In this document: one piece after another, positions 86 to 36,724 of the stretch
Layout of the letters: each line of letters opens with the position of its first letter
Numbering within the stretch: position 1 is the stretch's first letter
Assembly: GCA_020444265.1 (NCBI GenBank)
Contig: JAHLLH010000010.1
Location: forward strand, 1-64,000
DNA: 64,000 nt
Reading direction: 5' to 3'
Source of the DNA: a bacterium
GTDB taxonomy: Bacteria; Electryoneota; Electryoneia; Electryoneales; Electryoneaceae
Translations under genes and position numbers: made by a program
Notes under the pieces: model-generated
The model's database searches: none
What the model was told of the DNA's origin: nothing
Seen by the model: the letters and a program-made list of their open reading frames with translations, nothing else

Positions 86-622
86 ATGAACGCGCCTGAT
101 CAGATGGAAACCGACCGCCTCCTCCTGCGCAAAATCCGCTTCGAGGATGCGGACTGGATATTCAGTCGTTATGCTACTGATCCCTCTGTATCCCGCTATC
201 TCCGTTGGCAACCGCACCGTTCCATTTCCGAGACCCATCAATTCCTCGAAGAAGCCTTGCGGGGCTGGAAAGCGGGGCGCGCCTTTACCTACATCATCGA
301 GAAACGATCCAGCGGAGAAGGGGTTGGGACTATCGACATACGTGACCAAAGCAGCGATCTCGAAATCGGCTATGTCCTCGCCCAACCCTTCTGGGGCCTA
401 GGTTACGCTACCGAAGCAGCGACCGCAGTCATCGAGTGGGCCAAACAGCAGCAGGACATCCATCGCATCCACGCCTACTGCGACCCCGACAATCCCGCCA
501 GCAGCCGTGTCCTCGAAAAGGCTGGCCTGACCTTTGTCAAGATCCTGCCGCATTTCGGAGTACACCCGAACGTGAGTGATGAACCGAGGGATATACGGTT
601 GTTCGAGTGGCATCGAGCGTAG
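86..622 (+). CDS. GNAT-family N-acetyltransferase (RimJ/RimL-like)
   Basis: A 178-residue single-domain acetyltransferase that probably moves acetyl from acetyl-CoA to an amine of a protein N-terminus or small molecule. The N-terminus METDRLLLRKIRFEDAD is typical of the RimJ/RimL subgroup. GYVLAQPFWGLGYATEA around residues 110-127 is the acetyl-CoA pyrophosphate loop (Q/RxxGxG/A), and NPASSRVLEKAGL is the usual motif-B helix. The ATG follows a GGAG at a normal distance. The TAG stop (620-622) lies inside the terminal repeat of the palindromic element starting at 619, so the native C-terminus may have been altered by that insertion. The substrate cannot be told from sequence. The 85 bases upstream hold no gene I can support; a frame ending at position 30 could be the tail of an upstream gene. 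Confidence 0.88.
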   Translation: MNAPDQMETDRLLLRKIRFEDADWIFSRYATDPSVSRYLRWQPHRSISETHQFLEEALRGWKAGRAFTYIIEKRSSGEGVGTIDIRDQSSDLEIGYVLAQPFWGLGYATEAATAVIEWAKQQQDIHRIHAYCDPDNPASSRVLEKAGLTFVKILPHFGVHPNVSDEPRDIRLFEWHRA

Positions 623-737
623 GCCGGGGTTTCCAACCCCGGCAACAAAAGAAGGGGCCTCAGGGCCCCTGATACCTTTTTATAAGGAACGTCATGGCGA
701 TGCCATGACATCGCCGGGGTTGGAAACCCCGGCCTAC
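619..737. repeat. Family A palindromic element, copy 1 (perfect 25-bp terminal inverted repeats)
   Basis: The ends at 619-643 and 713-737 are perfect inverted complements (GTAGGCCGGGG.../...CCCCGGCCTAC). Each end is itself a small palindrome (CCGGGG-N7-CCCCGG). The interior holds a GGGGCC/GGCCCC hairpin with a T-run when read on the minus strand, and the palindrome GTCATGGCGATGCCATGAC. The interior matches the copy at 18531-18648 in inverted orientation. The left end supplies the stop codon of the acetyltransferase gene. Confidence 0.85.
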
Positions 738-745
738 ATCTGAGT

Positions 746-799
746 TCGGTCAGGTCTCCCGACCTGACCGAAAAAGCGGCAGGTCGGGAGACCTGCCGC
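746..799. repeat. Paired CAGGTC hairpins
   Basis: Two adjacent hairpins, CGGTCAGGTC-TCCC-GACCTGACCG (747-770) and GCGGCAGGTC-GGGA-GACCTGCCGC (776-799). Their cores are reverse complements of each other, so the pair also forms a larger inverted repeat. The same GCGGCAGGTC/GACCTGCCGC stem is found at 26811-26838, and a decayed relative lies near 1153-1172. Confidence 0.75.
771..799 (-). terminator. Rho-independent terminator of the 68-residue protein gene
   Basis: Read on the minus strand, GCGGCAGGTC-TCCC-GACCTGCCGC is followed directly by TTTTTC, 16 bases past the stop of the small gene at 815-1021. A 10-bp GC-rich stem plus U-tract is a standard intrinsic terminator. Confidence 0.75.
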
Positions 800-814
800 A
801 ACGATTATCGCGGT

Positions 815-1021
815 TTACTGCGTGTGGCAAGCGTTCGAACAGTAATAGCATCCGTTCGATTGTTTGTAAGTCTTCTTCGCTTCCTTCACGGCATCTTGGC
901 AATTGGTGTAATCCCCAAGATACTTTCGGTTTTGTTCTTCAGGCATGTACGTGCAACCACTCTTGTGAACTTCATGATCGCCGTTTGCCTGAGCGTTCTT
1001 GTTGACATAGTACTTCGCCAT
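815..1021 (-). CDS. Small conserved Cys-rich protein of unknown function (68 aa)
   Basis: Begins MAKYYVNKNAQANGDHEVHK at an ATG preceded by AGGAGG six bases away, which fixes the start; longer in-frame starts upstream lack a ribosome site. The protein has Cys residues in HKSGCTYM, DYTNCQDAV, and the C-terminal NGCYYCSNACH, which look like a small metal-binding or disulfide cluster. There is no signal peptide. The arrangement NxNGDHEVHKxGC...YLGxxxxC...AKKxYxQxNGCxYCxxxCH is familiar from uncharacterised proteins in many bacteria; no function is known to me. It is monocistronic, with its own promoter-like sequence and terminator. Confidence 0.8.
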   Translation of the reverse strand: MAKYYVNKNAQANGDHEVHKSGCTYMPEEQNRKYLGDYTNCQDAVKEAKKTYKQSNGCYYCSNACHTQ

Positions 1022-1085
1022 GTTGCCTCCTTTTTCTGGAATGATACATCGACGAGATGGGGAGGCGAAGCTGATAGTGATTAGT

Positions 1086-1115
1086 AAGATAGGGTGAAAA
1101 ATTTGTAAAAGTAAA
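1086..1115 (-). promoter_or_regulatory. Candidate sigma70-type promoter for the 68-aa gene
   Basis: On the minus strand TTTACT (1110-1115), an 18-bp spacer and TATCTT (1086-1091) lie about 65 bases before the start codon in an AT-rich patch. Fair but not exact consensus. Confidence 0.35.
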
Positions 1116-1193
1116 TATAAATAGGCGTAAATCTGACGAAAGCGGCGGGAAATTTGAGCAGGTCGAGAGACCGGCGGCAACATTGTTAGAAGT

Positions 1194-1242
1194 AACGTCA
1201 TGGCGTCGCCATGACAACGCCGGATTCAAGAATCCGGCCTAC
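1194..1242. repeat. Family A palindromic element, partial copy 3
   Basis: Contains the interior palindrome GTCATGGCGTCGCCATGAC and one intact end (1219-1242, GCCGGATTCAAGAATCCGGC followed by CTAC). The opposite end is missing; upstream is a degraded CAGGTC hairpin. The CTAC end, read on the minus strand, is GTAG and supplies the TAG stop of the potassium channel gene. Confidence 0.7.
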
Positions 1243-2246
1243 GCTTCCAACCGGAATTCCTTTTGGAATTTCTTGATCTGGGGCTCGGTCCCGAGGACGA
1301 GGACACGGTCTTTGGGTTGGATGCGGACGTCGCCGTCGGGGTGGAGGACCATACGGCCATCCTCGCGCTCGATGCCCATGATCATCGCGCCGCCGGTGAC
1401 ACGCCTCAGGTCGAGCTCCTTCAGCGATTTGCCGATCAGGATGTTGGTCGCGGGGATGATCGCCTGCTCCATGTGGAGATCGTCCGAGAAGGTGCGGCTG
1501 AAGAGGTCCATGAACTCGATGAAGCCGGGTTTGAGGACCAGGGTGGTCAGGCGTCGCCCGGAAATCTTGAAAGGCAATTCGACACGGTCCGCCCCAGCAC
1601 GTCTCAACTTCGCTACGCTGTTGTCATCGATTCCGCGTGCCACAATTTGCATTTTCGGATTCATCTCACGGGCGGTGATGGTCACCATCACGTTGCTCGC
1701 ATCTCCTGTCAACGCTGCGACCAGACCGTAGGCTTTCTTCACCCCTGCCTCTTCGAGGATGGTCTCGTCGGACGCGTCCCCACGGATCACCAGGAATCCC
1801 GCATCGAGGGCCGCACTTGCGTGATCATGGTCGACCTCGACAACACAGAACTGAGCATTGGCTTCATCGAGCTCACGTGCGATTTCACGTCCCAGCTTAC
1901 CATACCCGGCGACGATGACATGGTTCTCAAGGCTGTGGATTTTTTTCTCCATACGTCGTCCCTTTAGAGTTTCCATGATTTCGCCGCCCACGATGTAGCG
2001 GGTCAGGCTGGTGAGGCCGTACGCGCCGACGGTCAGCGCGGAAATGATCAGCACGATGGTAAAGGCACGTCCTGCCGCATCCAGTTCGCCCACCTCACGG
2101 TAGCCGACGGTTGAGACGGTGATCATCGTCATGTAGAGGGATTCCTCGATGGAAAAGCCCTCGAGGATGTGGTAGCCGAGAGTGCCAAACACGATGACAA
2201 ACAGGAGCGCCAGAAAGCTGAGCAGCAGTCGTAATCGGACGCTCAT
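1239..2246 (-). CDS. Potassium channel with RCK (TrkA-N/TrkA-C) regulatory domains
   Basis: A 335-residue ion channel of the two-TM plus RCK class. TM1 spans about residues 5-25, a pore helix precedes the selectivity filter TVGYREVGE near residues 46-54, and TM2 covers about 62-85. A Rossmann-fold RCK-N domain starts at VIVAGYGKLGREIARELD (GxGxxG nucleotide-binding loop) and runs to about 230. An RCK-C domain fills the last 85 residues. The family conducts K+ across the inner membrane and is gated by Ca2+, nucleotide or redox ligands; the ligand here is not evident. Length is normal. The start is ATG with an upstream GGGGGTGA. The gene stands alone, and its TAG stop is contributed by a family A repeat. 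Confidence 0.9.
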   Translation of the reverse strand: MSVRLRLLLSFLALLFVIVFGTLGYHILEGFSIEESLYMTMITVSTVGYREVGELDAAGRAFTIVLIISALTVGAYGLTSLTRYIVGGEIMETLKGRRMEKKIHSLENHVIVAGYGKLGREIARELDEANAQFCVVEVDHDHASAALDAGFLVIRGDASDETILEEAGVKKAYGLVAALTGDASNVMVTITAREMNPKMQIVARGIDDNSVAKLRRAGADRVELPFKISGRRLTTLVLKPGFIEFMDLFSRTFSDDLHMEQAIIPATNILIGKSLKELDLRRVTGGAMIMGIEREDGRMVLHPDGDVRIQPKDRVLVLGTEPQIKKFQKEFRLEA

Positions 2247-2334
2247 AGGGTCACCCCCGGGTTGGATGCGGTTTCAGTCACGGTGGAGTATACGAAAATT
2301 CAATAGGGGACGGTATGCTGCAAAGGCCAATCGA

Positions 2335-2362
2335 CTGACCCGACACTTCAGTGTCGGGTCAG
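2335..2362. repeat. Perfect 13-bp inverted repeat (hairpin)
   Basis: CTGACCCGACACT-TC-AGTGTCGGGTCAG forms a perfect 13-bp stem between the potassium channel gene and the end of gatE. It lies 24 bases past the gatE stop on the minus strand but has no T-run, so it may stall transcription or stabilise the 3' end rather than act as an intrinsic terminator. Confidence 0.6.
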
Positions 2363-2385
2363 GGCGCGTAGTTAAGCAGTAGAGC

Positions 2386-4278
2386 CTACCCTTCTAACAT
2401 CCTCAATACATCCGCCGAGGAGACTCGTCCGGCGAGACGGGCCATGACCAGACCCATCGCGATGGGGTGGAGGTTCTCTTCGACGCGAGGTTCCAGTTCA
2501 CGGGCGGCGTCAAGGGCCTTTGCGACTTCGTCACGGACATCACTTTCCTCGAGTGGGAACCAGCCCAACTCGCCAAGGATCTCGCCAAAACTGAGGTCGG
2601 GTTCGGCGGTCCAGGCGGATAGCAGGTCGAACAGCCCTTCGCGGTACACCTTGCCCGAGCCGAGCGCACGCAGGATCATTTCGAGCTTCTTCTCGTTCAG
2701 GTTCTCGACTGGGACCTCTTGACGACTTAACGCCACCAGCATCCGTGTCAGCACTTCCGCGGCACGCATCGGGGCAACAGCTTTCTCTTCGATCAGCCGG
2801 TCATAGAGATTTGCCCAGGGGCTGAAGGACAGCCGTGCAGCCATATCTGCGGACAGGCCCTGCTCGAGGTAGCGTTCCTCACGAATCCAGGGCAGAACGG
2901 GGACCATTGCGCGGGCTCGTTCGACACGCTCGTCGGTCAGCATCGTCGGCGGGGAGTCCGTGTCGGGATACATGCGGTCCGGGCCGGGCAGGACACGTTC
3001 GAAGTCGGTGGCATTGTTGGCAAGCGCCTGACGGGTTTCGCTGGGGATCCCATCAATCGCTTCGGCGTAACGGTCGATCACTTCACGAGCCGCAGTCTCG
3101 GTGTCCTCGTCGGACCCCCAAACGACGACCACAGCATCCTCATCACCGCAACCAGCCAGCTCGTGCAAGAGGTCGAGATCGTTCCGATCCAGCCCACCGC
3201 CGAGGTCGGTGTGGAAGAGGTTGGGCACTTGGTCAAGGCAGGCGATGACACGGACCCGTCCGGCGAGATCATCCGCAAACACACGTCCCCCCGAAAGCTC
3301 GTGGCTCAAAATTCCGAGCGATTTCGGCAGCTTGATCACACGGACCGTGTCGCCCGCTTTGAGGGCAGCCATCAGCTCCGGCTGATGCAGCTCAGCATCG
3401 GTTGGGACCACATGGACCGTGCCAGGTCTGTCACCTGCTTTCAGACCGCTATCTTGAAGGGTCTTACTGATATCGAGCAGTTCCTGCTGACGCAGGGCCT
3501 CGTAGGCAGTGAGTTCCGGGATACGAGGGATGCGCGGCACACCCTTGATCTCGACGCGGGTCGATCCTTCGATCGAGACATTGACATCCTGACGGCCTGC
3601 ACCGCTGCCGCGACGGACCATCTGGGTGGCGCGCAGCAGACGTCGAATCCGTTCCGCCGCTTCACCCGCCTCCTCCGGAGTGTTGAGGTTGCTGTCGGTC
3701 ACCACCTCGATGATAGGCATCGACAAGCGGTCGGCCATGAAGATGACACGGTGCCCCTCATCGGAGATTTCACGGCAGGCATCTTCCTCGAGACCGAGCT
3801 GGATGATCTTGATCACTTTGCCGCTCGACAGGGTGATTTCACCGTCCACACCGACAATCGTCGTCCGCTGGAACCCGGCCGGGATGGAACCATCGAGGTA
3901 CTGCTTGCGGATAATATGCAGCTCACCAACGATCTTGCACTTGAGCGCAAGGGCGATGGTCAATGCGATGTCCACCGCCTGGTCGTTGATGAGGAAAGGA
4001 GGATTGTCATCCATCTCATAGGTGCAGACGGTGTCCCGGTTCAGACGATAGATAATTTCTTTCTTCGTCTTGAATTCCATCAACGCGGTACCGTCATATT
4101 CACCCAACTCGCTGAGAGTCGGACGCATGTGACGTTGCACTTCGGCGTGGTACTTGTCGCTGTATTTGCCGGCGGGGCAATGGCAGAAGAGCTTCTTTTC
4201 GGTGAGCAACTGGTGGTGAATTTCGAGGCCGCAACGGAAGCCGAGGGCTTTCCAGTCGGCGCTGGGCATATTCTGCAT
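2386..4278 (-). CDS. gatE: Archaeal-type Glu-tRNA(Gln) amidotransferase subunit E
   Basis: A 630-residue protein matching GatE, the tRNA-binding kinase subunit of the archaeal GatDE complex that turns Glu-tRNA(Gln) into Gln-tRNA(Gln). The N-terminus has FRCGLEIHHQL followed by KLFCHCP, the GatB/GatE signature. Mid-protein, VLPGPDRMYPDTDSPP is the GatE form of the cradle motif. A region around residues 300-420 (VIKLPKSLGILSHEL...) resembles the GAD insertion that separates GatE from GatB. The C-terminus is the helical YqeY-like tail. The start was set at MQNMPSADW, which has AGGAG 10 bases upstream; the frame extends 56 codons further without family similarity. No gatD is visible nearby. GatE is characteristic of archaea and unusual in bacteria. 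Confidence 0.85.
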   Translation of the reverse strand: MQNMPSADWKALGFRCGLEIHHQLLTEKKLFCHCPAGKYSDKYHAEVQRHMRPTLSELGEYDGTALMEFKTKKEIIYRLNRDTVCTYEMDDNPPFLINDQAVDIALTIALALKCKIVGELHIIRKQYLDGSIPAGFQRTTIVGVDGEITLSSGKVIKIIQLGLEEDACREISDEGHRVIFMADRLSMPIIEVVTDSNLNTPEEAGEAAERIRRLLRATQMVRRGSGAGRQDVNVSIEGSTRVEIKGVPRIPRIPELTAYEALRQQELLDISKTLQDSGLKAGDRPGTVHVVPTDAELHQPELMAALKAGDTVRVIKLPKSLGILSHELSGGRVFADDLAGRVRVIACLDQVPNLFHTDLGGGLDRNDLDLLHELAGCGDEDAVVVVWGSDEDTETAAREVIDRYAEAIDGIPSETRQALANNATDFERVLPGPDRMYPDTDSPPTMLTDERVERARAMVPVLPWIREERYLEQGLSADMAARLSFSPWANLYDRLIEEKAVAPMRAAEVLTRMLVALSRQEVPVENLNEKKLEMILRALGSGKVYREGLFDLLSAWTAEPDLSFGEILGELGWFPLEESDVRDEVAKALDAARELEPRVEENLHPIAMGLVMARLAGRVSSADVLRMLEG

Positions 4279-4412
4279 CGGGACCCGTCTCCTGCCGGTA
4301 CAATCGTTGGTCGGACGTCTTGTCTGATGGTCCAAAAAGGTGACGGGGTAGTTTAGTGTTCCACAGGAAGCGCCGCAACGGGTGGGGAGGCGCGCGAGGG
4401 GGAGTGGTTTCT

Positions 4413-4441
4413 TTGTCCAAGTGCTCTCAAACGTGTAGATT
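4413..4441 (+). promoter_or_regulatory. Candidate sigma70 promoter of the secreted-protein/nucleoside salvage operon
   Basis: TTGTCC, 17-bp spacer, TAGATT, ending 24 bases before the first start codon of the operon. Moderate match only. Confidence 0.35.
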
Positions 4442-4464
4442 AGCAAAGATGGGGATCACTCTGC

Positions 4465-5286
4465 ATGGGGGATGGGATGGGTCAAGCGAACCGATGGATT
4501 TTACCTGCTGCCGCAGTGCTACTGCTTGGTTGCCAGCCTCTGCTCGCAGAAGAATCCGAATCCCCACCATCCGATGCTGTCGGGGCGCATGTTTTTACCT
4601 TTACTCCGGGCTGGAACCTGATCAGCTTTCCACTGATAGACGAGAATGACACATTTGTAGAGTTGTTTTATGGTCACCTCGATGGCACAGGAACCAGCGA
4701 GAACTCGGACTTGATCCGTGGGATCAACCCGGAGACGGGATTGATGGATTCTCTCTGGTTTGAGGAAGGTATGGTGCCACATGGCGGGCTTGCATTGCAT
4801 CCTCCCTCGCCAGGTGCAGCCTACTGGCTATACCGGAATCCCATGTTTGAGGAGAATGCTCGACTGGTTGTGATGGGGCAACCTCGTACAGAGCCATCGT
4901 TGGACCGTGGCACCTTTGAACCGGGCACTCATCTGGTTGGCACCTTTTACGCGGATGTTATTCCCTTCAGCGAATCAGGACTGGCAGAAGCGGGTATCGA
5001 ACCCTCACCCGGGATCCTCGGCCCTGAAGGGGATGGTGTGGAGGCGGTACTGGGTTGGGATACGATCGAGCAGCGCTACCGGATGGCCTATTTCGATGGG
5101 GAACAGTGGCGAGGCGATCTACCCGCCATGCTGCCAGGGCATGGATACCTGTTGTGGAACCGTCATCTGATCGATTGGGATCAATTTGCTGATCCAACAC
5201 ATGTTCATCAGGTTGCTACCACCCCTGAACCCTTTTCATTACCACCGGTAAACCGGGTTCATTCGATTGAGGGGAGGGGACAATGA
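4465..5286 (+). CDS. Secreted protein of unknown function, first gene of operon
   Basis: A 273-residue exported protein. A signal peptide covers about residues 8-29 (ILPAAAVLLLGCQPLLA); a Cys in it could be a lipobox (LLGC), so lipoprotein status is possible. The mature part opens with the phrase FTFTPGWNLISFPL, which recurs in T9SS-associated surface proteins, and has a similar motif later (GTHLVGTFY...GHGYLLWNR). No catalytic motif is seen. It ends in the ATGA overlap with the next gene, so the two are translationally coupled. ATG 4465 was chosen; ATG 4477, just after GGGGGATGG, is an equally good start. Confidence 0.7.
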   Translation: MGDGMGQANRWILPAAAVLLLGCQPLLAEESESPPSDAVGAHVFTFTPGWNLISFPLIDENDTFVELFYGHLDGTGTSENSDLIRGINPETGLMDSLWFEEGMVPHGGLALHPPSPGAAYWLYRNPMFEENARLVVMGQPRTEPSLDRGTFEPGTHLVGTFYADVIPFSESGLAEAGIEPSPGILGPEGDGVEAVLGWDTIEQRYRMAYFDGEQWRGDLPAMLPGHGYLLWNRHLIDWDQFADPTHVHQVATTPEPFSLPPVNRVHSIEGRGQ

Positions 5287-6551
5287 GAGGTGTAACCCTT
5301 CTTCTGGTTTTCTTTCTGGTGGCTGGTAGCGTGGTTGCCCAACCCGATAGCGTACCGGTCCTTTTCGCGACAGCGGACACGGTACGTGGCTACCTCGACA
5401 TGCCGGATGCCTATGGCAACCCGGCCCAGGTCGGGAACATCTGGCAACTTATCCGTATCCCAGAAGGATCGGATGGGTATCCGCCCTCCCTCGATCCCGA
5501 TAACTTTGGTATGCCTGGGGAAACGGATGAACTGCTTGCCTCGGGTCGAATCGGGGAAGGGAGTTTCCTACCCGAGGGGAGTCGTGGGATAGGGTTTCTG
5601 CTCAGCTTCCCATCCGACTATCTCCTGGATCGGACGACTCTCCGTGTATTTGGATCCGACACCCTCGCCGAAGGGGTACGCTACCTGGATTCCGGACTGG
5701 CAATGGCGAATCCTCTTGTTTACAGCTTCATGGGTCCGTTCCTCTATCAAACCTTTTCCGCTGGCCATGGTGGCTTCCTGATAAGGGAGTTGAGCGAGGA
5801 GGATTCCATCCTCGCTAGTCCCATCGCAGCCTATCTGGACCCTGCAAGCAATTCAATTGATTGGGGGATCCCGTCGGAAGGTGTTGATGTTTCTTTCGTT
5901 GTTCAGCAGGGGGGATTGGGATTGCAGGCCCTGGTCCTCGAAAGTGCCGCGACACCGATCCGTGGCTGGACCTCGGACTTTCCTCCTCTGCAACGAAATG
6001 TCGTTGTATTGACGGACCAGGTTCGGGAACCAGGCGAGGGAAGGACCGTGACCCTGAGAATGCATTTCTCACAGGAGGAGTTGGATACCCTCTATCATGG
6101 TGAAGTGAGCGTCAACGAGATAGCAATGTTCCGTGAGACGGCTGATGGCTGGGAACTTCTCCCAACCACCTACTCGCCTGGATCAGAGCTGACCTACACC
6201 ACCACCGATCCCGCTCCCTTCTTCGGGCGATTTACTCTGGCACCACGTTGGGCTCTTGGGACAGATGAGGAAACCGATGCACTGCCTCTCGCGTTCAAGC
6301 TTCACCCGGTCTATCCGTCACCCTTTAACCCCGATGCACGGATTCGTCTCGACCTGCCAAGGACCCTTCCAGTCCGGCTCGAGGTCTTCGACATTCTTGG
6401 GCGGCAGGTTGCGACACTCCAGGATGGTGTCTTGCCCGGGGGCAGCCATGCCTTTACCTTCTCCGGCGGTCATCTTGCCAGCGGCACCTATTTCCTCCGC
6501 GTCCGTGCTGGTGACCATCACGCGGTCCAAAAGATGGTACTGATACGATGA
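5283..6551 (+). CDS. Secreted protein with T9SS C-terminal sorting domain
   Basis: A 422-residue protein with an N-terminal signal peptide (MRGVTLLLVFFLVAGSVVAQ). Its last 85 residues form a type A sorting domain: VYPSPFNPDARIRLDL, then VRLEVFDILGRQVATL, then the Gly/His turn and SGTYFLRV. In the T9SS this domain directs export through the SprA channel and is usually removed on attachment to the surface. The central 300 residues are beta-rich and I recognise no enzyme. It overlaps the preceding gene by 4 bases and the following one by 4, placing a T9SS client in the middle of a nucleoside-salvage operon. The cognate translocon gene sprA is at 47974. Confidence 0.8.
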   Translation: MRGVTLLLVFFLVAGSVVAQPDSVPVLFATADTVRGYLDMPDAYGNPAQVGNIWQLIRIPEGSDGYPPSLDPDNFGMPGETDELLASGRIGEGSFLPEGSRGIGFLLSFPSDYLLDRTTLRVFGSDTLAEGVRYLDSGLAMANPLVYSFMGPFLYQTFSAGHGGFLIRELSEEDSILASPIAAYLDPASNSIDWGIPSEGVDVSFVVQQGGLGLQALVLESAATPIRGWTSDFPPLQRNVVVLTDQVREPGEGRTVTLRMHFSQEELDTLYHGEVSVNEIAMFRETADGWELLPTTYSPGSELTYTTTDPAPFFGRFTLAPRWALGTDEETDALPLAFKLHPVYPSPFNPDARIRLDLPRTLPVRLEVFDILGRQVATLQDGVLPGGSHAFTFSGGHLASGTYFLRVRAGDHHAVQKMVLIR

Positions 6552-7555
6552 AACTTTTCCAGATACATCTCCTTTTGCTGCTTGCACTTGCACTGTTGAC
6601 CGCTGGTTGCGGTGGGGATGCTGCGACCGAGCCAAAACCCTTCTTTGTGGCTTCGAGCGGCTACCTGCGTGGCATGACTGAACCCTGCGCCTGCCCGGGC
6701 CATCCATTGGGTGGGCTACCCAGGCGTGCACACCAGATGACGCTGACCATGCGCTGGCCGACGGCTACGATGAAAGTGGATGCCGGCAATTTCATCTCGC
6801 TGGATCGTAATCTCGCGAAACCGGAAACGGAACTGCTGGTCGCCGGCTTGATGAAGCTTGACTACCAGGCAATCCATGTTGCCCGCCGTGACCTGCAAAT
6901 CGGGGTCGATTTCTTACAGGAATTGCAGACCAATTACCTGGTCCCGTTCACGTCAGCCTCCATCCTCGATGCTGAGAGCAACAAACCGATCTTCGATACG
7001 CACAGAATCGTTCGTCTGAAGACCGAAACCGGGCCGATTGATGTCGCGGTGATTGGGGTGACGATGGGGCAGGGTCGTTACCTGCCGCCGGAGTGGGGAG
7101 TTGCGATCAAGGCACCGGAAAAGGCATTGCGTGAGGAATTGGATAGGTTACATGGCAAGGTTGGCGCGGTGGTGCTGCTGACCGATGCACGCCGTCGTGA
7201 AGTTGCCGACTGGCTGGAGAAGGCAGAAGCATTCGATGAGATCGCTGCCATCTTCTCCTGTTCCATCAGCCCAAACCGTTCCACGTATACCACCGTCTCA
7301 GAGGTCCCCTACACGACCAACGGCCAGCAGGGGAAATTCTTCGACATCACCGAACTGACCCCGGGCGAGAATGACCGTTGGAAGATGGACAAGAATGGCT
7401 GGCCGTTGAACGATTCAGTTGAGGATGATCCAGCCATGATGGCCTACCTGGATGAGATGCGCTCGAAGCTTGGGATTGAAGCGACAGCCGACAAAAACAA
7501 GAGCGTCGGGACCATCCTTAAAAGTGATGGGACCAGCTGGGAGTCGGGAAAATGA
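6548..7555 (+). CDS. Lipoprotein related to 5'-nucleotidase metallophosphoesterases, active site degenerate
   Basis: A 335-residue lipoprotein (lipobox LTAGC, acylated Cys21). Residues 44-60, TEPCACPGHPLGGLPRR, carry the CxCP-x-PLGGL-RR motif of a nucleotidase-like subfamily in which these Cys replace the usual DxH metal ligands. KVDAGN (76-81) aligns with the DxGD motif. The later GNHE, His-Gly and GHSH motifs of true 5'-nucleotidases are not present (LLTDARRRE and IFSCSIS stand where they would be). It therefore looks like a binding protein or an enzyme with altered metal chemistry. Joined by ATGA overlaps to the T9SS client upstream and cdd downstream, which fits a role in nucleotide capture. 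A better-preserved paralog is at 18852-19718. Confidence 0.65.
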   Translation: MKLFQIHLLLLLALALLTAGCGGDAATEPKPFFVASSGYLRGMTEPCACPGHPLGGLPRRAHQMTLTMRWPTATMKVDAGNFISLDRNLAKPETELLVAGLMKLDYQAIHVARRDLQIGVDFLQELQTNYLVPFTSASILDAESNKPIFDTHRIVRLKTETGPIDVAVIGVTMGQGRYLPPEWGVAIKAPEKALREELDRLHGKVGAVVLLTDARRREVADWLEKAEAFDEIAAIFSCSISPNRSTYTTVSEVPYTTNGQQGKFFDITELTPGENDRWKMDKNGWPLNDSVEDDPAMMAYLDEMRSKLGIEATADKNKSVGTILKSDGTSWESGK

Positions 7556-7974
7556 GCGCACCAGTCGACAAAGAGCGCAGCTTGATTGATGCTGCCTTAG
7601 CGGTACGTGAACATGCCGCCGCGATCTACTCAGGCTTTAAGGTGGGTGCTGCCCTGCTCGACAGCACCGGACGTACCTGGACCGGCTGTAATGTAGAATC
7701 CTCTTCGTATGGCCTGAGTTGCTGCGCAGAACGGACCGCGCTGTTCAAGGCGATTTCGGAAGGGGTACGTGACTTTGAGACCATCGCGGTTGTCGCGGGC
7801 GGAAACGGTGTGGCAACCCCTTGCGGTGCCTGCCGTCAGGTGCTGCACGATTACGCGCCCAAACTGAAGATCATGTTGCACAATCCTGATACGAACGAGT
7901 CACGCAGTATGCCGCTTTCCGAACTTCTGCCCCATGCCTTCAGCGAGGCGAACCTGAAAGGAACCGGGAGATGA
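7552..7974 (+). CDS. cdd: Cytidine deaminase
   Basis: Deaminates cytidine and deoxycytidine to the uridine forms in pyrimidine salvage. The 140-residue length matches the small tetrameric class. Zinc site: CAE (Cys58-Ala-Glu60, Glu being the proton shuttle) and PCGAC (Cys91 and Cys94). The substrate-binding NVE (47-49) and FKVGAALL are also present. It overlaps the preceding lipoprotein gene and udk by 4 bases each (ATGA), so it is co-translated with the salvage kinases that use its products. Confidence 0.95.
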   Translation: MSAPVDKERSLIDAALAVREHAAAIYSGFKVGAALLDSTGRTWTGCNVESSSYGLSCCAERTALFKAISEGVRDFETIAVVAGGNGVATPCGACRQVLHDYAPKLKIMLHNPDTNESRSMPLSELLPHAFSEANLKGTGR

Positions 7975-9218: not shown

Positions 9219-9220
9219 GT

Positions 9221-9259
9221 GGCTTGGGTGCCCCGCCACCCAAGCGTGCATGTCAGCAC
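9221..9259. repeat. Family C palindrome, copy 1
   Basis: GCTTGGGTG-CCCCGC-CACCCAAGC (9222-9245) followed by GTGCATGTCAGCAC. Nearly the same sequence is at 16391-16430, and inverted copies are at 41930-41970 and 46091-46132. It directly follows tdk and might end the operon transcript, but no T-run follows. Confidence 0.75.
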
Positions 9260-9452
9260 AGGATTGGATACGATGAGCGAGTTGTATCAAGCGTGGCATA
9301 CTGCCCTACCGTGCTACACGATGAATCGGTGGGGTAAATCCGCAATCTGACAACGCGTCAAAAATCAGTATTCAAAGACATGGTGATTGATCAACTACCG
9401 AATAAACGCTAGTATGTATGAAGGTTTATCAGGTAAACAGGGAATAGTGATA

Positions 9453-10754: not shown

Positions 10755-10767
10755 ACGGGAATTCAGC

Positions 10768-12060: not shown

Positions 12061-12083
12061 GACGATTTATTGCTGTGGCAACC

Positions 12084-12120
12084 AGCAGGGCCGTTCGGGA
12101 GAACGTCCCTGTTTCTCTTG
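12084..12120 (+). terminator. Probable terminator of the lipoprotein pair
   Basis: CAGGGCCGTTC-GGGA-GAACGTCCCTG (one mismatch in an 11-bp stem) followed by TTTCTCTT. Confidence 0.55.
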
Positions 12121-12174
12121 ACATGCCTCGCACCGTATCAAGACCTTTACGGATTGCTCTGACTGACCTTAGTA

Positions 12175-12307
12175 GTCGTTGCGACTCCGGCTGTAGCCGG
12201 GTGAAGCAATCTCGCAGCACTCATCCAATTTTCCTGCACGCTCCGCGCGCAGCTGCCACCATTAGAGTGCTATGAGACTGCTTTGTCCCTGTGGTCCTCG
12301 CAGCGAC
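12175..12307. repeat. Inverted-repeat element of the GTCGTTGCGA...AAGCAATCTC type
   Basis: The left arm (12175-12213) has GTCGTTGCGA and AAGCAATCTC around a CCGGCTGTAGCCGG hairpin. The right arm (12274-12307) has GAGACTGCTTT and CTCGCAGCGAC, its reverse complement with mismatches. The space between lacks coding signals. Together with the upstream terminator this accounts for most of the 293-bp gap before the nucleoside transporter gene. Confidence 0.5.
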
Positions 12308-12353
12308 ACGCGAGTAACATCCTGTTTGAAATGTTTGAACGAAAGAGGTATCT

Positions 12354-13661
12354 GTGGAGAGATTCATCGGGATTCTGGGTGTGGTGGCGATGTTGGGCAT
12401 CGCCTACCTGATGTCCAACAATCGCAAGGCGATTAACTGGCGTACGGTTGGTGTTGGTGTTGGCCTGCAAATCTTTTTCGCGCTCTTCGTGCTGCGGACC
12501 AAGCCGGGCGAATGGATGTTCCAGGGGGCACGTGCCTTCATCGCGAAGATCCTCACCTTCACCGATTATGGTGCCCACTTCCTCTTCGGCAACCTCTACC
12601 TGACCAGCTCCGATCTGGCGGGAAATATCGCGAATGACGTGCCACCGGGTATGGAACAGGGGTTCACCGTGATGAACCCCTCAACCGGCGGCCTGATGGA
12701 GATCGGAACCGTCTTCGCGATTCATGTCCTGCCGACCATCATCTTCTTCGGATCGCTGATGGCGGTCCTCTATCACCTGGGGGTGATGCAGCGCCTTGTC
12801 CAGGGCTTCGCCTGGGTGATGAGCCGTGCGATGCGCACCAGCGGTGCCGAATCGCTGTCGGCAGCCTCGAACATCTTTGTCGGGCAGACCGAAGCGCCGT
12901 TTGTCGTCAAGCCCTTCCTCGGTAAAATGACCCCCAGTGAAATCATGGCGGTGATGACCGCTGGTTTTGCGACCGTCGCGGGTGGCGTGTTGGCTGCCTA
13001 TGTCCGTTTCGGCGTCGACCCGGGCCACCTGATGGCGGCTTCGGTGATGAGTGCGCCAGCGGCGTTGGTGATGGCGAAGTTGATGATTCCAGAAGTGAAT
13101 ACCCCGGATACGGGGCAGTCGCTGAATATCAATGTCGAGAAGATGTACTCGAACGTTATTGATGCGGCTGCGGGCGGTGCGTCGGACGGTCTCAAACTGG
13201 CGGTGAATGTCGCCGCGATGCTGATCGCCTTCATCGCACTGGTCGCGATGATCAACGGCTTCCTCGGCTGGGTGGGTGGTCTATTTGGTCTGGAAGGATT
13301 TTCGCTGAAAATGATCCTCGGCTACCTCTTCAGCCCGCTCGCCTTCCTGATGGGGGTCAACTGGCATGATGCGCTCAACGTCGGCTACCTGATGGGCGCA
13401 AAAATTTCGATCAACGAGTTCGTTGCCTATATCGATCTGGTCGGCATGAAAGATCAGATCAGCCCGCGCAGCTTCACCATCGCGACCTATGCCCTCTGCG
13501 GCTTTGCAAATCTTTCCAGCATCGCGATCCAGATTGGCGGCATCGCAGCGCTGGTGCCCGAGCGGCGTAAAGACCTCGCGCGCCTCGGCGGACGTGCCAT
13601 GATCGCCGGCGCCCTCGCCAGCTTCCAGACCGCGACCATCGCAGGGATTTTATTGCATTGA
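12354..13661 (+). CDS. Concentrative nucleoside transporter (CNT/NupC family)
   Basis: Cation-coupled nucleoside importer of the inner membrane, 435 residues with about ten hydrophobic segments. Family motifs: GQTEAPFVVKPFL near residue 182, AGFATVAGGVLAAYVRFG around 210, and the conserved MTPSEIMAVM between them. The start is GTG with AAAGAGG seven bases upstream. It stands alone but is only 3 kb from cdd-udk-tdk and would supply their substrates. The carried ion (H+ or Na+) cannot be told from sequence. Confidence 0.9.
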   Translation: MERFIGILGVVAMLGIAYLMSNNRKAINWRTVGVGVGLQIFFALFVLRTKPGEWMFQGARAFIAKILTFTDYGAHFLFGNLYLTSSDLAGNIANDVPPGMEQGFTVMNPSTGGLMEIGTVFAIHVLPTIIFFGSLMAVLYHLGVMQRLVQGFAWVMSRAMRTSGAESLSAASNIFVGQTEAPFVVKPFLGKMTPSEIMAVMTAGFATVAGGVLAAYVRFGVDPGHLMAASVMSAPAALVMAKLMIPEVNTPDTGQSLNINVEKMYSNVIDAAAGGASDGLKLAVNVAAMLIAFIALVAMINGFLGWVGGLFGLEGFSLKMILGYLFSPLAFLMGVNWHDALNVGYLMGAKISINEFVAYIDLVGMKDQISPRSFTIATYALCGFANLSSIAIQIGGIAALVPERRKDLARLGGRAMIAGALASFQTATIAGILLH

Positions 13662-13743
13662 TAATTTTCTGATCATTACTTAGACGCCCTGTGCGTTTGG
13701 CTTTGGTGGGGCGTCACCAATATGCTAAAGGAACCCCGATCAC

Positions 13744-15228
13744 ATGTTTGAGCAACCAATGAAACGCTCGCTAATTCTGGTAGTTTCAATCTGCCTTACC
13801 TCGGTGCTTATGATTGCCTGCCGTTCCTCCTCGCCGGGGAATGGCAACACTCCGATCGGTCCGAGCGACACAACAGAGACTCGCAGCCCCAACCCCTCCC
13901 GTCAACCGGGCGATCCGATCTTGCCCGACCCGGATTGGGCGGACTACTACGCCAGCCATTGGGATTCGACAGGACTGGGTCCGGATGATTTGAGCTGCGA
14001 CTACCGGCAGATGCTGGATAGTTATGATCCCTATGAATATTTGCTGCGGTGGGTGTACCAACGGACCCGCTCCGGGGCAGAGGATACTGTTGACTATGTC
14101 CACAAACTTGTGGAGAGGGATTCGGATGATTATTCGAAACAACTCATCGTTCGGCAATCCAATTCACTTGCGGATGTCCGACATGGTCAACTGATCGCAA
14201 CTATTTGGCATTCCCACCAAGATTATTCCGTTCATGACTATTTCATAATTGACGGGTATTATCACGACATCATGCATTGGCCGTTCTACTGCTTTTGTGC
14301 TGCCCAAGCGGGTGACACGATTCGCTACCGTCAGCATGTCGTTGAAGGAGAAAGTGTACGAAAAGAATTGGTTCAAGTCATTGGTTGGGATGAAACCGTT
14401 CACCTGCCTGATACTACGTTCACTGGTTGCTATGGCGTTGTAATCGATACACTTGTTTCCGATTCGACTCAGGATTATCATCGTCAGGTTTTTAACTATT
14501 ACGCCCCGGGAATTGGTTTGGTGAAGCAGGTGGACATCCTCAACTCCGATCAGGATTCGCATACGACAACCGTTGAATACAAACCTCCGGTGTCCATGCC
14601 GTGGTACTACCCCATTCCCACAGGGCCAGGTGAACCGGGTGAAGCAATTCAGGAGTTCTATCCATTCGCCGAAGGACGACAATGGGAGTATCGTCAAACG
14701 GGGGGGTGGCAGGATTCTCTGTTTATACGTGATGAATGCGGTGCGCCGAGCTCAGGGGAGCAGGGGTATGCACACTTTCCGGTCCAGGAGTTTCAGGCTT
14801 CATGGGGGGACACATCAGGTATAATGGAAGAACCCGTGATCTCTTTCTGGGGAACCTACAATGGAAATGATGTCCTGAAATGCAATACTCCGAATACAAC
14901 GTATAAAGCAATGCCGCAATTCTTTCGCTTCCCCAATGTTGAGCCTGGACAGCTCCTATTTGACTCAAGTCGAGTAGGCTCTTACTACGAATCAGCACGT
15001 GTAGTCAGTGTCAACAGCACAGTCGAAGTTGAGGCCGGTACCTTTGAAAACGTGTATGTGGTTCACTACCATCAAGCCTCAGGGAGTGGTCAGTGGCGAT
15101 CATCAATTACCGGTGATGAATACTATGCGCCGAATGTGGGACTAATCCTTGCTGAATGGGAAACCAGTTTTGATTACCAGGACTGGAACGTCCGCCAGGA
15201 GCTTCTATCCTGGGAGCCTGGGAACTGA
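13744..15228 (+). CDS. Lipoprotein of unknown function, distant relative of the 9.4-12 kb pair
   Basis: A 494-residue lipoprotein with lipobox LMIAC and a Ser/Pro/Thr-rich linker (RSSSPGNGNTPIGPSDTTE). The C-terminal half starts FYPFAEGRQWEYRQTGG, the same element as RYFPLEVGTEWVYSL and WFPMHEQQSWTYGL in the two lipoproteins upstream, so the three share a domain. The N-terminal half differs from theirs. AAAGGA precedes the ATG; a second ATG five codons later is possible. No function can be assigned. Confidence 0.7.
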   Translation: MFEQPMKRSLILVVSICLTSVLMIACRSSSPGNGNTPIGPSDTTETRSPNPSRQPGDPILPDPDWADYYASHWDSTGLGPDDLSCDYRQMLDSYDPYEYLLRWVYQRTRSGAEDTVDYVHKLVERDSDDYSKQLIVRQSNSLADVRHGQLIATIWHSHQDYSVHDYFIIDGYYHDIMHWPFYCFCAAQAGDTIRYRQHVVEGESVRKELVQVIGWDETVHLPDTTFTGCYGVVIDTLVSDSTQDYHRQVFNYYAPGIGLVKQVDILNSDQDSHTTTVEYKPPVSMPWYYPIPTGPGEPGEAIQEFYPFAEGRQWEYRQTGGWQDSLFIRDECGAPSSGEQGYAHFPVQEFQASWGDTSGIMEEPVISFWGTYNGNDVLKCNTPNTTYKAMPQFFRFPNVEPGQLLFDSSRVGSYYESARVVSVNSTVEVEAGTFENVYVVHYHQASGSGQWRSSITGDEYYAPNVGLILAEWETSFDYQDWNVRQELLSWEPGN

Positions 15229-15241
15229 ACGTTATCAAAGC

Positions 15242-16390
15242 TTAGAGCGGCATTTTTCTCTGTGAATCATCGAGTTGATCGACCAGCTTGAGCATCACCT
15301 TGTGAAGGGCGAGGGGGGAGGAACCATCAGGCCGTACCCAGGCGAGGGTGCGGCTATTGTGCTCGAAGGGGGTGTTGAGGGGTGGCTGCCAAATATCGTG
15401 AGATTGCGTCGCTTCGCTCGCGAGGACTTCAAAAGCCCGAACCGCAATGGTGAAATGGGAATAGGCGTGACGTGAGGTGGCGAGGATCGGCCCCACCTTG
15501 GTTGACAACTGAAGTTGATTCTTCAGCATTTCCTGAAGTACTACTTGAGGTTCGATGGCGCCGGACAGCTCTACCACTGGCAGCTCCCACATCCCGCCCA
15601 GCAATCCATCTGGGGGCCGTTTCCAGATCATCAGGCCGCCATCATCGCGCCGGATCAGCGCCGCTACCGCGTGTTTGTGAGGGACCTTCTTCTTCGGGGA
15701 AGTGACCGGGATGCTGCCGATGCGTCCAGAGGCGAGGGCATCACACTCCTTCCACAACGGGCACTCTGGGCATTTCGGCTGTTTCGGGATGCAGAGGGTC
15801 GCGCCAAGCTCCATCATCGCCTGGTTATGGTCGCCGGGGTGGCTTGCGGGTACCAATTGTTCGGCGAGCTCCCACAATTCCTTCTCGGTCGTGCGCTCGT
15901 CGATGGGACGGCTGATCGCGAAAAGACGTGCCAGCACTCGCTTCACATTGCCATCGAGTACGGCCACCTGTTGATCCTGCGCGATGCTGGCAATCGCGGC
16001 TGCGGTGTAGCGCCCGATCCCCGACAGTTCCGCCCATTCGTCGGCATTCTCTGGGAAACGGCCATGTCGTTCGTGCGCCACTACCTGCGCGCCCTTCTGC
16101 AAGTTGCGAGCACGGCGATAGTACCCCAGTCCCTCCCACAACTTGAGAAGCTCTTCTTCAGGAGCGTCCGCAAGGGCACGTACTGTGGGGAAGGCTTCGA
16201 GGAATTGGTGATAGTAAGGGATGACCGTTTCCACTCGTGTCTGCTGGAGCATGATCTCGCTGACCCAGATACGGTAAGGGTCGCGTGTCTCGCGCCACGG
16301 CAGCTCACGGGCATTGCTACGGTACCACTCACCGAGTTTTTGTGGAATAGGGGAGGGCACTCTGCTTGTTTCTCCTTTTTTGTCGACCAT
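15242..16390 (-). CDS. mutY: A/G-specific adenine DNA glycosylase
   Basis: Base-excision repair enzyme that removes adenine opposite 8-oxoguanine. EIMLQQTRVETVIPYY carries the catalytic Glu, LSGIGRYTAAAIASIA is the helix-hairpin-helix, and VLDGNVKRVLARL holds the conserved Asp. A [4Fe-4S] cluster motif, CIPKQPKCPECPLWKEC, has the C-x6-C-x2-C-x5-C spacing. The last 130 residues form the NUDIX-like domain that reads 8-oxoG. At 382 residues it has normal length. The start is uncertain: no good ribosome site precedes the ATG at 16390, and a family C palindrome lies directly upstream, where a TTG at 16414 is also in frame. Confidence 0.93.
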   Translation of the reverse strand: MVDKKGETSRVPSPIPQKLGEWYRSNARELPWRETRDPYRIWVSEIMLQQTRVETVIPYYHQFLEAFPTVRALADAPEEELLKLWEGLGYYRRARNLQKGAQVVAHERHGRFPENADEWAELSGIGRYTAAAIASIAQDQQVAVLDGNVKRVLARLFAISRPIDERTTEKELWELAEQLVPASHPGDHNQAMMELGATLCIPKQPKCPECPLWKECDALASGRIGSIPVTSPKKKVPHKHAVAALIRRDDGGLMIWKRPPDGLLGGMWELPVVELSGAIEPQVVLQEMLKNQLQLSTKVGPILATSRHAYSHFTIAVRAFEVLASEATQSHDIWQPPLNTPFEHNSRTLAWVRPDGSSPLALHKVMLKLVDQLDDSQRKMPL

Positions 16391-16430
16391 TGGCTTGGGT
16401 GCCCCGCCACCCAAGCTTGCATTTCAGCAC
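16391..16430. repeat. Family C palindrome, copy 2, touching the mutY start
   Basis: GCTTGGGTG-CCCCGC... and CACCCAAGC (16393-16416), followed by TTGCATTTCAGCAC. The hairpin begins two bases before the mutY start codon and occupies its expected ribosome-binding site. Confidence 0.75.
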
Positions 16431-16456
16431 GATTCGTCTATCGAACGGGAATGAAA

Positions 16457-16478
16457 CCCCGGCAGGGGACTGCCGGGG
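16457..16478. repeat. GC-rich hairpin between divergent genes
   Basis: CCCCGGCA-GGGGAC-TGCCGGGG, an 8-bp stem. The same stem with another loop is the terminator at 36679-36700; here no T-run follows on the plus strand. Confidence 0.4.
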
Positions 16479-16533
16479 CCACCCCCCCATCTCGCAAAGG
16501 CACCAATTCCTTTGCCCCATCGCAGGTTTTTCC

Positions 16534-16561
16534 TTGACGGCATACCCCTCGAGAGTATATT
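16534..16561 (+). promoter_or_regulatory. Sigma70-type promoter of the peptide transporter gene
   Basis: TTGACG, 16-bp spacer, TATATT, 60 bases before the start codon. Strong match to the general bacterial consensus. Confidence 0.6.
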
Positions 16562-16620
16562 TCTCAATCTCCGGCGAGAGGGTGCCGGATGAGAAACGGT
16601 GAGAGACGAAGGAGCACCGC

Positions 16621-17964
16621 ATGGCGCAACAAGCGGAAGCAGTGGCCGTGAAACGACCGCATCCGAAAGGATTGCCGGTTCTCTTCATGACCGAGATGTG
16701 GGAACGATTCAGCTTTTACACGATGCGGGCGATCTTTGCCCTCTATATGGCGACCCCCGTGGAGTACGGCGGCCTGGGGTTCACGGTCCAGCTGACGGCC
16801 ACCATTTACGGCCTCTATGTCGGGCTCGTCTATTTTACACCCCTGTTTGGCGGCATCCTGGCCGACAAGGTGCTGGGGATCAAACGATCGGTGACGGTTG
16901 GTGGTCTCTTCTTCCTGTTGGGCCACCTCCTCTTGGCGTTCCGTCCCCTGCCTTTCTTCTTTGGCGGTCTGCTGGCGTTGATCATTGGTAACGGCTTGTT
17001 CAAACCGAACATTTCGACCATGCTCGGCAACCTCTACCGTGAGGTACCGGAACGTCGGGATGATGGCTACAACATTTTCTACATGGGCATCAACCTCGGT
17101 GCCTTCCTCTCGCCCTTTGTCGCTGGCTACCTGCGTGTCAATTATGGCTGGCACTATGGCTTTGGCGCGGCGGCGATCGGGATGATCTTCTCGATGGCGG
17201 TCTTCTGGACCTTCCAGAAACATGTCGCAGCGGGCGATGTAGGTCCTGCGGCGAAACGTTTGCGTCACGAGGAAGCCACTCCTGTGAAGGAAGAGAAGTC
17301 CGATCCTGTGAAGGACAAGCAGCGCACCAAGGCGCTGATGATCATCTTCTTCATCGTCATCTTCTTCTGGATGGCCTTCGAACAGCAGGGCTTGACCCTC
17401 ACCTTCTGGGCGCAGAACGCGACCAACACCGCGATTGCGGCAGAAACCTTCCAATCGGTCAACCCGATGTTCATTCTCGTGCTGACCGTCCCCCTCGTCG
17501 CCTTCTGGGGCCTGCTAAGGCGTCGCGGCAAGGAACCGACCACCGCAACCAAGATGTTCATCGGCATGCTGCTGGCGGTCGTCGCTTTCATCATCATGGC
17601 TATCTCCGGCTATGCAGGTGGTAACGGCGGGCATGTGAGTGTCTACTGGTTGATGGGGGCTTATGCGGTGCTGACGACCTCCGAACTGATGCTGTCGCCA
17701 ATGGGTCTCTCGCTGGTCAGCAAGCTGGCACCGAAGAAGAGCCTCGGGATGATGATGGGCGGCTGGTTTGTCGCATCGGGCATCGGCGGCTACCTCTCCG
17801 GCCTGATCGGCGGGTTCTGGAACAGCATGAGCCACAGCGGCTTCTTCCTGCTGATCGCGGGAATCCTGCTGGTTATCGCGCTGGTCCTGGCGACCCAGCT
17901 GAAAGCCTTGAACCCGATCATCCATGAAGCAGAACAGGAAGCCGCTGAAGCGGCCGGGCACTAA
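16621..17964 (+). CDS. Proton-dependent oligopeptide transporter (POT/PTR family)
   Basis: Major-facilitator importer of di- and tripeptides, 447 residues with about 12 to 14 membrane spans. The proton-coupling motif ExxERF is present as EMWERFSFY (residues about 22-30). The second family signature is seen in GNGLFKPNISTMLGNLY. A charged loop around 205-235 (KHVAAGDVGPAAKR...KEEKSDPVKDKQRTK) separates the two halves. It is followed closely by the SNase-like gene (17 bases), which may be co-transcribed. Confidence 0.92.
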   Translation: MAQQAEAVAVKRPHPKGLPVLFMTEMWERFSFYTMRAIFALYMATPVEYGGLGFTVQLTATIYGLYVGLVYFTPLFGGILADKVLGIKRSVTVGGLFFLLGHLLLAFRPLPFFFGGLLALIIGNGLFKPNISTMLGNLYREVPERRDDGYNIFYMGINLGAFLSPFVAGYLRVNYGWHYGFGAAAIGMIFSMAVFWTFQKHVAAGDVGPAAKRLRHEEATPVKEEKSDPVKDKQRTKALMIIFFIVIFFWMAFEQQGLTLTFWAQNATNTAIAAETFQSVNPMFILVLTVPLVAFWGLLRRRGKEPTTATKMFIGMLLAVVAFIIMAISGYAGGNGGHVSVYWLMGAYAVLTTSELMLSPMGLSLVSKLAPKKSLGMMMGGWFVASGIGGYLSGLIGGFWNSMSHSGFFLLIAGILLVIALVLATQLKALNPIIHEAEQEAAEAAGH

Positions 17965-17981
17965 GCCGGAAGGAGATGACC

Positions 17982-18527
17982 ATGAAGATTAACGGACTAT
18001 CCCTGCTCCTCCTGCTGCTGGCCGCAGTTCTGGTGGGCACCTACGGATACTTCAGTGACCACGACAAAGTTGTCGCGGTCCTCGATGACAATACGATTGA
18101 GCTGAGCAAAGGGCGGATCGTTCACCTCGTAGGTGTCGATCCTGTTGCCGATCCGGTAGGGATCACCCCGGCAACGGGTGCCAGCCATACCCCCGAGGCT
18201 ACGGATGAGGCTGCGGAACCCGAGATGGAGATTGATTCTCCCTACCTCGACGCGATCACCGGCAAAGCGATGGACCAGAAGGTGAAACTCCATTTCCCGT
18301 CCAACTACAACGGTGACATGCCGACACCCGACCTCTTCGCCTATGTCGAACTCGCAGATGGAACCGACCTTGGCGGTTGGATCATCGAGCAGGGCTTTGC
18401 GAGGGCGGACGGCCAACATCAGTACGACCAGGCCGCCTCCTACAAGTCGACCGAAAGCGCGGCGATGGAGGCTCACATGGGCATGTGGAGACCCGTCAAA
18501 CCCGACACGATGGATGTGATGGAGTAA
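17982..18527 (+). CDS. Exported SNase-like (thermonuclease-fold) protein
   Basis: A 181-residue protein with an N-terminal hydrophobic signal/anchor (MKINGLSLLLLLLAAVLVGTYGYF). The rest follows the staphylococcal nuclease fold: IELSKGRIVHLVGVDPV matches the beta-strand that in active enzymes reads RLxGIDxPE, LADGTDLGGWIIEQGFARAD matches the nLnxxLvxxGlAxv motif, and AAMEAHMGMW matches AxxxxxGlW. The usual catalytic Glu after GID and Arg residues are not evident, and a Thr/Pro/Glu-rich insert replaces the active-site loop. It may have lost nuclease activity. The start was placed at 17982, six bases after AGGAG. Confidence 0.65.
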   Translation: MKINGLSLLLLLLAAVLVGTYGYFSDHDKVVAVLDDNTIELSKGRIVHLVGVDPVADPVGITPATGASHTPEATDEAAEPEMEIDSPYLDAITGKAMDQKVKLHFPSNYNGDMPTPDLFAYVELADGTDLGGWIIEQGFARADGQHQYDQAASYKSTESAAMEAHMGMWRPVKPDTMDVME

Positions 18528-18530
18528 AGT

Positions 18531-18648
18531 GTAGGCCGGATTCTTGAATCCGGCGAGGTTATGGCAAAGCCATGACGTTCCTCTTGAAAGATGTGTCAGG
18601 GGCCTTCGGGCCCCTTCTTTTGTTGCCGGATTCAAGAATCCGGCCTAC
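18531..18648. repeat. Family A palindromic element, copy 2
   Basis: Perfect 24-bp terminal inverted repeats at 18531-18554 and 18625-18648 (GTAGGCCGGATTC... / ...GAATCCGGCCTAC). Each end is a palindrome with a stem (CCGGATTC/GAATCCGG) different from that of copy 1. The interior matches the copy at 619-737 in reverse orientation, including TTATGGCAAAGCCATGA and the GGGGCC hairpin. It starts 3 bases after the SNase-like gene. Confidence 0.85.
18599..18621 (+). terminator. Rho-independent terminator carried inside family A element
   Basis: GGGGCC-TTCG-GGCCCC followed by TTCTTTTG, in the correct orientation to end the peptide transporter/SNase-like transcript. Confidence 0.65.
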
Positions 18649-36646: not shown

Positions 36647-36678
36647 TTTTTGGTTAGTTGTGCCTCGTCTTTCAATGG

Positions 36679-36710
36679 CCCCGGCAGCTTGATGCCGGGG
36701 TTTCTTTGTT
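36679..36710 (+). terminator. Rho-independent terminator of buk-iorAB
   Basis: CCCCGGCA-GCTTGA-TGCCGGGG followed by TTTCTTTG. Confidence 0.85.
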
Positions 36711-36724
36711 TGCACAAAACCCTC

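Follow-up and report, generated by a model that had tools for sequence, protein, structure and literature searches.

Two palindromic elements in a 64,000-nucleotide (nt) stretch of bacterial DNA, positions 1 to 64,000 of contig JAHLLH010000010.1 in assembly GCA_020444265.1 (hereafter the window; G000:C13:1-64000 in our labelling of genomes and contigs), are very probably REP doublets forming hairpins (REPINs). These are non-autonomous, inverted pairs of GTAG-tagged repetitive extragenic palindromes (REPs), which would be moved in trans by a REP-associated tyrosine transposase (RAYT) of the HUH/Y1 type encoded elsewhere in the genome. The host genome, a 4.33 Mb assembly of 19 contigs, belongs to the family of Candidatus (Ca.) Electryonea in the phylum Ca. 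Electryoneota of the FCB group. The general REPIN-RAYT mechanism is already known; its occurrence in Electryoneota is likely to be new, the phylum being unnamed in the consulted portions of the REP surveys, which falls short of proof. Below we describe the elements, their genome-wide family, the pattern of base pairing in their stems and the associated transposase.

Structure of the window elements

The two complete elements lie at 619..737 and 18531..18648, where a sequence-only reading of the window had placed palindromes sharing an interior in opposite orientations and bearing different terminal repeats. This description holds: compared in opposite orientation they are 78% alike over the full 119 nt, with the interiors reaching 86% over 43 nt and 83% over 40 nt. 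Both match our model R1, whose alignment includes them (E 6e-28 and 2e-28, respectively), but as R1 was built from 15 of the copies later matched, such matches are no independent confirmation. Copy 1 (minus strand, when oriented with its GTCATGGC hairpin first) has ends of what we term the G type, namely a REP at 619..643 (plus strand), comprising the GTAG tag and a perfect 9-bp stem, GCCGGGGTT/AACCCCGGC, with the loop TCC, and a REP with the same stem at the opposite end (713..737, minus strand). The interior contains two more hairpins, hairpin 2 at 691..709 (GTCATGGC/GCCATGAC, 8 pairs) and hairpin 3 at 653..670 (AGGGGCC/GGCCCCT), the latter being terminator-like with a T-rich tail after it on the minus strand. 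Copy 2 (plus strand) has T-type ends, with the GTAG tag and perfect 9-bp stem GCCGGATTC/GAATCCGGC at 18531..18554 (plus strand) and a REP of the same stem type at 18625..18648 (minus strand). Its hairpin 2 (GTTATGGC/GCCATGAC) is at 18558..18576 and its hairpin 3, again AGGGGCC/GGCCCCT and followed by TCTTTTGTTG in a terminator-like arrangement, at 18598..18615, both on the plus strand. A third copy, at 1196..1242 (minus strand), is a half element, with a single REP that has a perfect T-type end (1219-1242) and the adjoining hairpin 2 (about 1196-1216), the second REP being missing or decayed.

In both complete copies the terminal inverted repeat is perfect over 25 nt (619-643/713-737, GTAGGCCGGGGTTTCCAACCCCGGC; 18530-18554/18625-18649, core GTAGGCCGGATTCTTGAATCCGGC), and each terminal repeat is also a perfect hairpin by itself. 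The perfect pairing claimed from the sequence alone thus stands for both end hairpins and both long repeats. The first interior hairpin of copy 2 has one G-T pair, so that the stems are not all perfect. When each single strand was folded as DNA, copy 1 gave z-scores of -12.0 and -13.0 and copy 2 of -11.4 and -11.8, with none of 200 shuffles being as stable as the window REPIN folds. Hence, the long single-strand hairpin that typifies REPINs is present in each (z -11.4 to -13.0).

At two of the REPs the adjoining gene ends on the GTAG tag, whose TAG serves as its stop codon (window 619-622 and 1239-1242); the genes concerned encode a GNAT acetyltransferase and a TrkA-domain potassium channel. 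Across the genome the tag gives an in-frame stop in 10 of 58 cases, against 7 and 4 in the other frames, a weak bias that is not convincing. Beside the first REPIN there is also a perfect 10-pair terminator-like hairpin (window 776-799), amid palindromes of another type, GGTCAGGTC/GACCTGACC.

A dispersed family of GTAG-tagged REPs

A search of the genome with the pattern GTAGGCCGG-N-CCGGC recovered about 59 matches, a few of them double or unrelated, as against 2 for the reversed control. Together with the folding scores this establishes that the copies are not a product of chance. The REP units number about 55 when counted exactly and 79 when up to 4 edits are allowed, the latter counted only in stretches around search matches. 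GTAG is present at the 5' foot of 58 of the 79 approximate units, the stem has 9 pairs and the loop is mostly of 2-3 nt. There are three main heads, T (ATTCTTGAAT), G (CCGGGGTTTCCAACCCCGG) and C (ATTCTCCGAAT), and the tag, the outer stem GCCGG/CCGGC and the spacer anchors are common to all end types. Units that are at most 160 nt apart are arranged in inverted, head-to-head order in 19 cases and in tandem in 9, with none in the opposite inverted order. Full doublets number about 20, with gaps mostly of 57-75 nt and a spacer of about 70 nt. Outside the tag there is a weak preference over approximately 9 nt (always a purine at -2 and mostly T at -1), beyond which the flanks carry no information; this is the pattern of dispersed insertions. 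The family thus has the many dispersed copies expected of GTAG REPs (about 59 matches versus 2, in flanks that are random beyond 9 nt). Some copies are clustered or nested, e.g. at C11:270789-270976 and C15:25593-25807.

These features recall the GTAG-tagged REP superfamily (PMC3733652), which is similarly characterized by an unpaired GTAG, a perfect 9-bp stem, a small loop, homo- and heterodimers and a preference for the 3' ends of genes. GTAG repeats are reported there from Proteobacteria, Cyanobacteria, Chloroflexi and the PVC superphylum, and Electryoneota goes unmentioned in the portions consulted.

Covariation of the stems and the unit of constraint

Because the 24- and 25-nt ends come out one column apart in MAFFT, we counted positions in the REP stems starting at each end. 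In the 76 units whose arms are 9 nt long, 375 of the 380 cells of the five inner pairs are Watson-Crick; when the 3' arms were re-dealt in 5,000 shuffles, the count averaged 285 and never exceeded 321. Five distinct perfect stems were found, namely GATTC and GGGTT, and, as single copies, GGTTC, GGTTT and GTGTT. GATTC, GGTTC, GGTTT and GGGTT form a path of single paired steps. Thus, the stem positions that set the end types change in matched pairs across the genome copies, which is the covariation that the sequence-only reading had proposed to test for. At least one unpaired position occurs in 15 of the 76 units; these are scattered as decay would leave them and do not amount to pairing broken at random across the family. 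As the counts take related copies as independent and the search was centred on the three main heads, pairing itself is more safely shown by them than its strength is measured.

The paired intermediates bear directly on the idea that the end types are unrelated elements, whose common interior arose when different repeats nested or recombined. Such an origin would fit the existence of clustered and nested copies and the free combination of hairpin-2 types with head types (see below), but it leaves unexplained both the tag, outer stem and spacer anchors common to all types and the existence of GGTTC, GGTTT and GTGTT, all of them perfectly paired. With interiors shared and intermediates linking the ends, we reject this idea as largely refuted and consider it highly unlikely.

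The two ends of a doublet are of equal type in 20 of 23 cases, against 12.1 expected under random assortment (p 9e-5). In 19 doublets the pairs within an end are intact in 334 of 342 cells, as compared to 322 matches across the ends. The distinction is sharper in the three doublets with clearly different stems, in which within-end pairing is preserved in 18, 17 and 17 of 18 positions while the across-end matches drop to 14, 11 and 15. Since these unlike-ended doublets retain their end hairpins even as the long repeat fails, it is probably the single REP hairpin, rather than the long inverted repeat, that is the constrained unit, as observed in three cases.

The interior hairpins vary in a comparable manner. 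Hairpin 2 begins three nucleotides after the REP, usually with GAG or GAT in between, and its outer six pairs take 14 distinct forms in 41 units, with 242 of 246 cells being Watson-Crick where shuffles gave 138 on average and 173 at most; the search for it favoured paired stretches and this count is therefore an upper bound. Its common stems are found with several heads, GTCATGGC and GTCCGGC each with T, G and C, and GATGGGC with T and G, which indicates that the elements are mosaics. In hairpin 3, too, the sequence varies while the pairing is retained.

This pattern raises the question of whether pairing is maintained by mutation instead of selection. In such a scenario, which is compatible with the elements being REPINs, the palindrome corrects itself through intrastrand template switching or mismatch repair of the folded strand, and a change is thereby copied to all four arms. 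It would account for four linked positions changing together, for a hairpin 2 that is varied yet well paired (242 of 246 cells) and for the scarcity of wobble intermediates; yet unlike ends and broken stems persist (3 of 23 doublets and 15 of 76 units), and the hairpin-2 figure is inflated by the manner of its detection. We regard it as possible but doubtful for the family as a whole. The narrower proposal, that hairpin 2 in particular owes its intact pairing to templated self-correction of the folded DNA single strand and not to selection through the RAYT, appears rather unlikely; if true, the elements would be natural records of intrastrand template switching.

The window copies sit at gene ends, and 3 of the 22 doublets checked overlap crude open reading frame (ORF) calls, which in GC-rich DNA are possibly spurious. 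For approximately 17 doublets a crude ORF was called on either side; the neighbouring genes are divergent in no case and convergent in about eight. This gene order, along with the terminator-like hairpin 3 and T-rich tail of both window copies, might be taken to mean that pairing is preserved for a role in transcribed RNA, as 3' end hairpins, terminators or mRNA stabilizers, with the link to a transposase being incidental. However, the same bias is reported for REPs in general (PMC3733652), and the family is dispersed, with conserved ends in random flanks. Moreover, selection on RNA should tolerate G-U, but the unpaired REP cells comprise 6 G-T, 6 A-C and 7 others. The compensatory change with G-U tolerance on one strand that marks RNA structures is thus not seen, though the numbers are small. 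The RNA-structure alternative raised by the sequence-only reading is accordingly not supported, and we consider it unlikely.

The RAYT gene and its relatives

The sequence-only reading had offered, beside RNA structure, selection or conversion of ends in elements processed by a transposase and had suggested looking for a RAYT gene, while noting that no transposase was seen nearby. The latter is correct for the window and does not extend to the genome, which has genes of the Y1/RAYT family at five places. The strongest of these (C1:59-562, minus strand) reaches 127 bits against NF047646, the NCBI model for REP-associated tyrosine transposases (cut-off 80), and is homologous over residues 16-156 to the E. 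coli TnpA_REP of solved structure (PDB 4er8; E 4e-20). It carries the HUH motif DHLH and the tyrosine motif YIHANP. A complete REPIN of this family, with T ends on both sides as in the T-type window copy, lies 8 bp from the start codon of the gene. Beyond the stop codon, at a distance of 9 bp, another REP is marked by its CTAC tag (C1:46-49), into which an IS110-type element is inserted. With a REPIN on one side and a REP tag on the other, this gene is flanked by outward-facing REPs in the usual layout, so that both an HUH/Tyr transposase gene and its cognate REP flanks are present at C1. The transposase reading thereby gains support from a gene that exceeds a curated cut-off and adjoins a member of the same family, on another contig.

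Comparable loci are present in related genera. In Ca. Electryonea, of the same family, two RAYTs have doublets on either side; the head of these doublets is ATGGCTTGCAT at one RAYT and ATTCTTGAAT, identical to the window's T head, at the other. REPs with the head TTTCGTTGAAA enclose a RAYT in a third genus. The outer stem of these relatives is CCCGG/CCGGG as against GCCGG/CCGGC here, which is again a paired change, and the RAYT at C1 is 38-45% identical to theirs. In G001, a genome of the same family, one locus shows complete identity over 3,372 bp with a metagenome-assembled genome of Candidatus Electryonea clarkiae, which places the window's genome in the family of that species.

The system resembles the TnpA_REP/REP systems of E. 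coli and Stenotrophomonas (PMC8266576; PDB 4er8) in having a homologous RAYT, and, as in the Stenotrophomonas REP, a perfectly palindromic stem with a 2-3-nt loop. It differs from that of E. coli, whose REPs carry a bulge, and the RAYT described here is a putative enzyme recognized by its sequence. In published assays on a perfect-stem REP, mismatches placed near the middle affect or almost abolish cleavage by TnpA_REP, with complementary replacements mattering less (PMC8266576).

We accordingly favour a REPIN mechanism in which the element's DNA would become single-stranded, probably when exposed in replication, with each end folding into a short perfect hairpin. The RAYT would recognize the GTAG tag and hairpin, cut, and then copy or move the element. 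A stem substitution that breaks pairing would make a poor substrate end and one that restores pairing would rescue it; hence, the stem would drift between types (GATTC, GGTTC, GGTTT, GGGTT, GTGTT) while its pairing stays, and both ends of an active doublet would tend to match. The RAYT at C1 would be the enzyme that moves these copies, and the matched ends may reflect either selection for its recognition or the copying of one arm from the other.

Several points weigh against this mechanism. Mobility was not observed, and the data come from one strain of the species. The ends are unlike in 3 of 23 doublets. Broken pairs occur in 9 of 37 single units and 6 of 39 in doublets, which is only a trend (p 0.39), and decay of immobile singlets is therefore not demonstrated. 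Finally, only the T-type head adjoins the strongest RAYT, with none linked to the G- or C-type heads, and no REP was detected beside the other four Y1 genes.

An IS110-type element at the REP tags

The window begins with the 3' end of an IS110-type element (1-45), which passes, across a CT core, into the REP tag CTAC (46-49); the hairpin belonging to this tag is absent from the contig (1..49, plus strand). This insertion is part of the history of the REP family and not of the two REPINs. In all, 12 contig ends lie inside one multicopy repeat at a REP tag with a CT core, six being 3' ends with the junction ...ACAGTCG/CT/AC and six 5' ends with the junction ...C/CT/TGTATATTCGTG. Besides the window start, they are found on C1, C2, C3, C9, C10, C11, C12, the end of C13, and C18. 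In Ca. Electryonea, an element of the IS110 family whose ends closely resemble these likewise lies within a REP and shares the CT core; we therefore dropped an IS200/IS605-type insertion at GTAG as the identity of this repeat. Neither the IS110 protein nor the body of the element is in this assembly, and the IS110-type assignment consequently rests on the ends. REPs are also the target of IS621, an IS110 element of E. coli that uses a CT core (PMC11208160), and, in other bacteria, of several IS110 elements (PMC1525189). A second IS110 element in Ca. Electryonea (L283, G001:C6) lies beside a stretch encoding YIHNNPVRNKLVEFPE, apparently a RAYT-like remnant.

Other repeats in the window

The window also contains repeats of other kinds. 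A perfect 25-nt AT-rich inverted repeat with a 3-nt centre (19786-19838) is enclosed by two direct repeats, at 19754 and 19857, that are 30 nt long and 93% alike. A further family of dispersed palindromes, GCTTGGGTG..CACCCAAGC, is represented at 9220, 16391, 41931 and 46092. Two inverted repeats, of 86 nt (85%) and 47 nt (89%), lie about 6 kb apart at 30368-30592 and 36676-36910.

General implications

The elements are akin to the REPINs of Pseudomonas fluorescens SBW25 (PMC3116915), which are likewise RAYT-linked, hairpin-forming inverted doublets with a spacer of about 70-110 nt, and which also comprise several head groups per genome with compensatory changes. They differ from them in phylum and sequence, in being far fewer (about 20 full doublets) and in having two extra covarying hairpins in the spacer. 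Our findings appear to add an uncultured phylum, a member of the FCB group, to the range of the REPIN-RAYT arrangement; sister genera in it possess related RAYTs and REPs of their own. In its perfectly paired stem intermediates the family offers a compact natural series, and the doublets that retain their end hairpins while losing the long inverted repeat are informative as to what a RAYT recognizes. With the same tag serving as the landing site of an IS110-type element, the REP targeting known for IS621 recurs here in a distant phylum.

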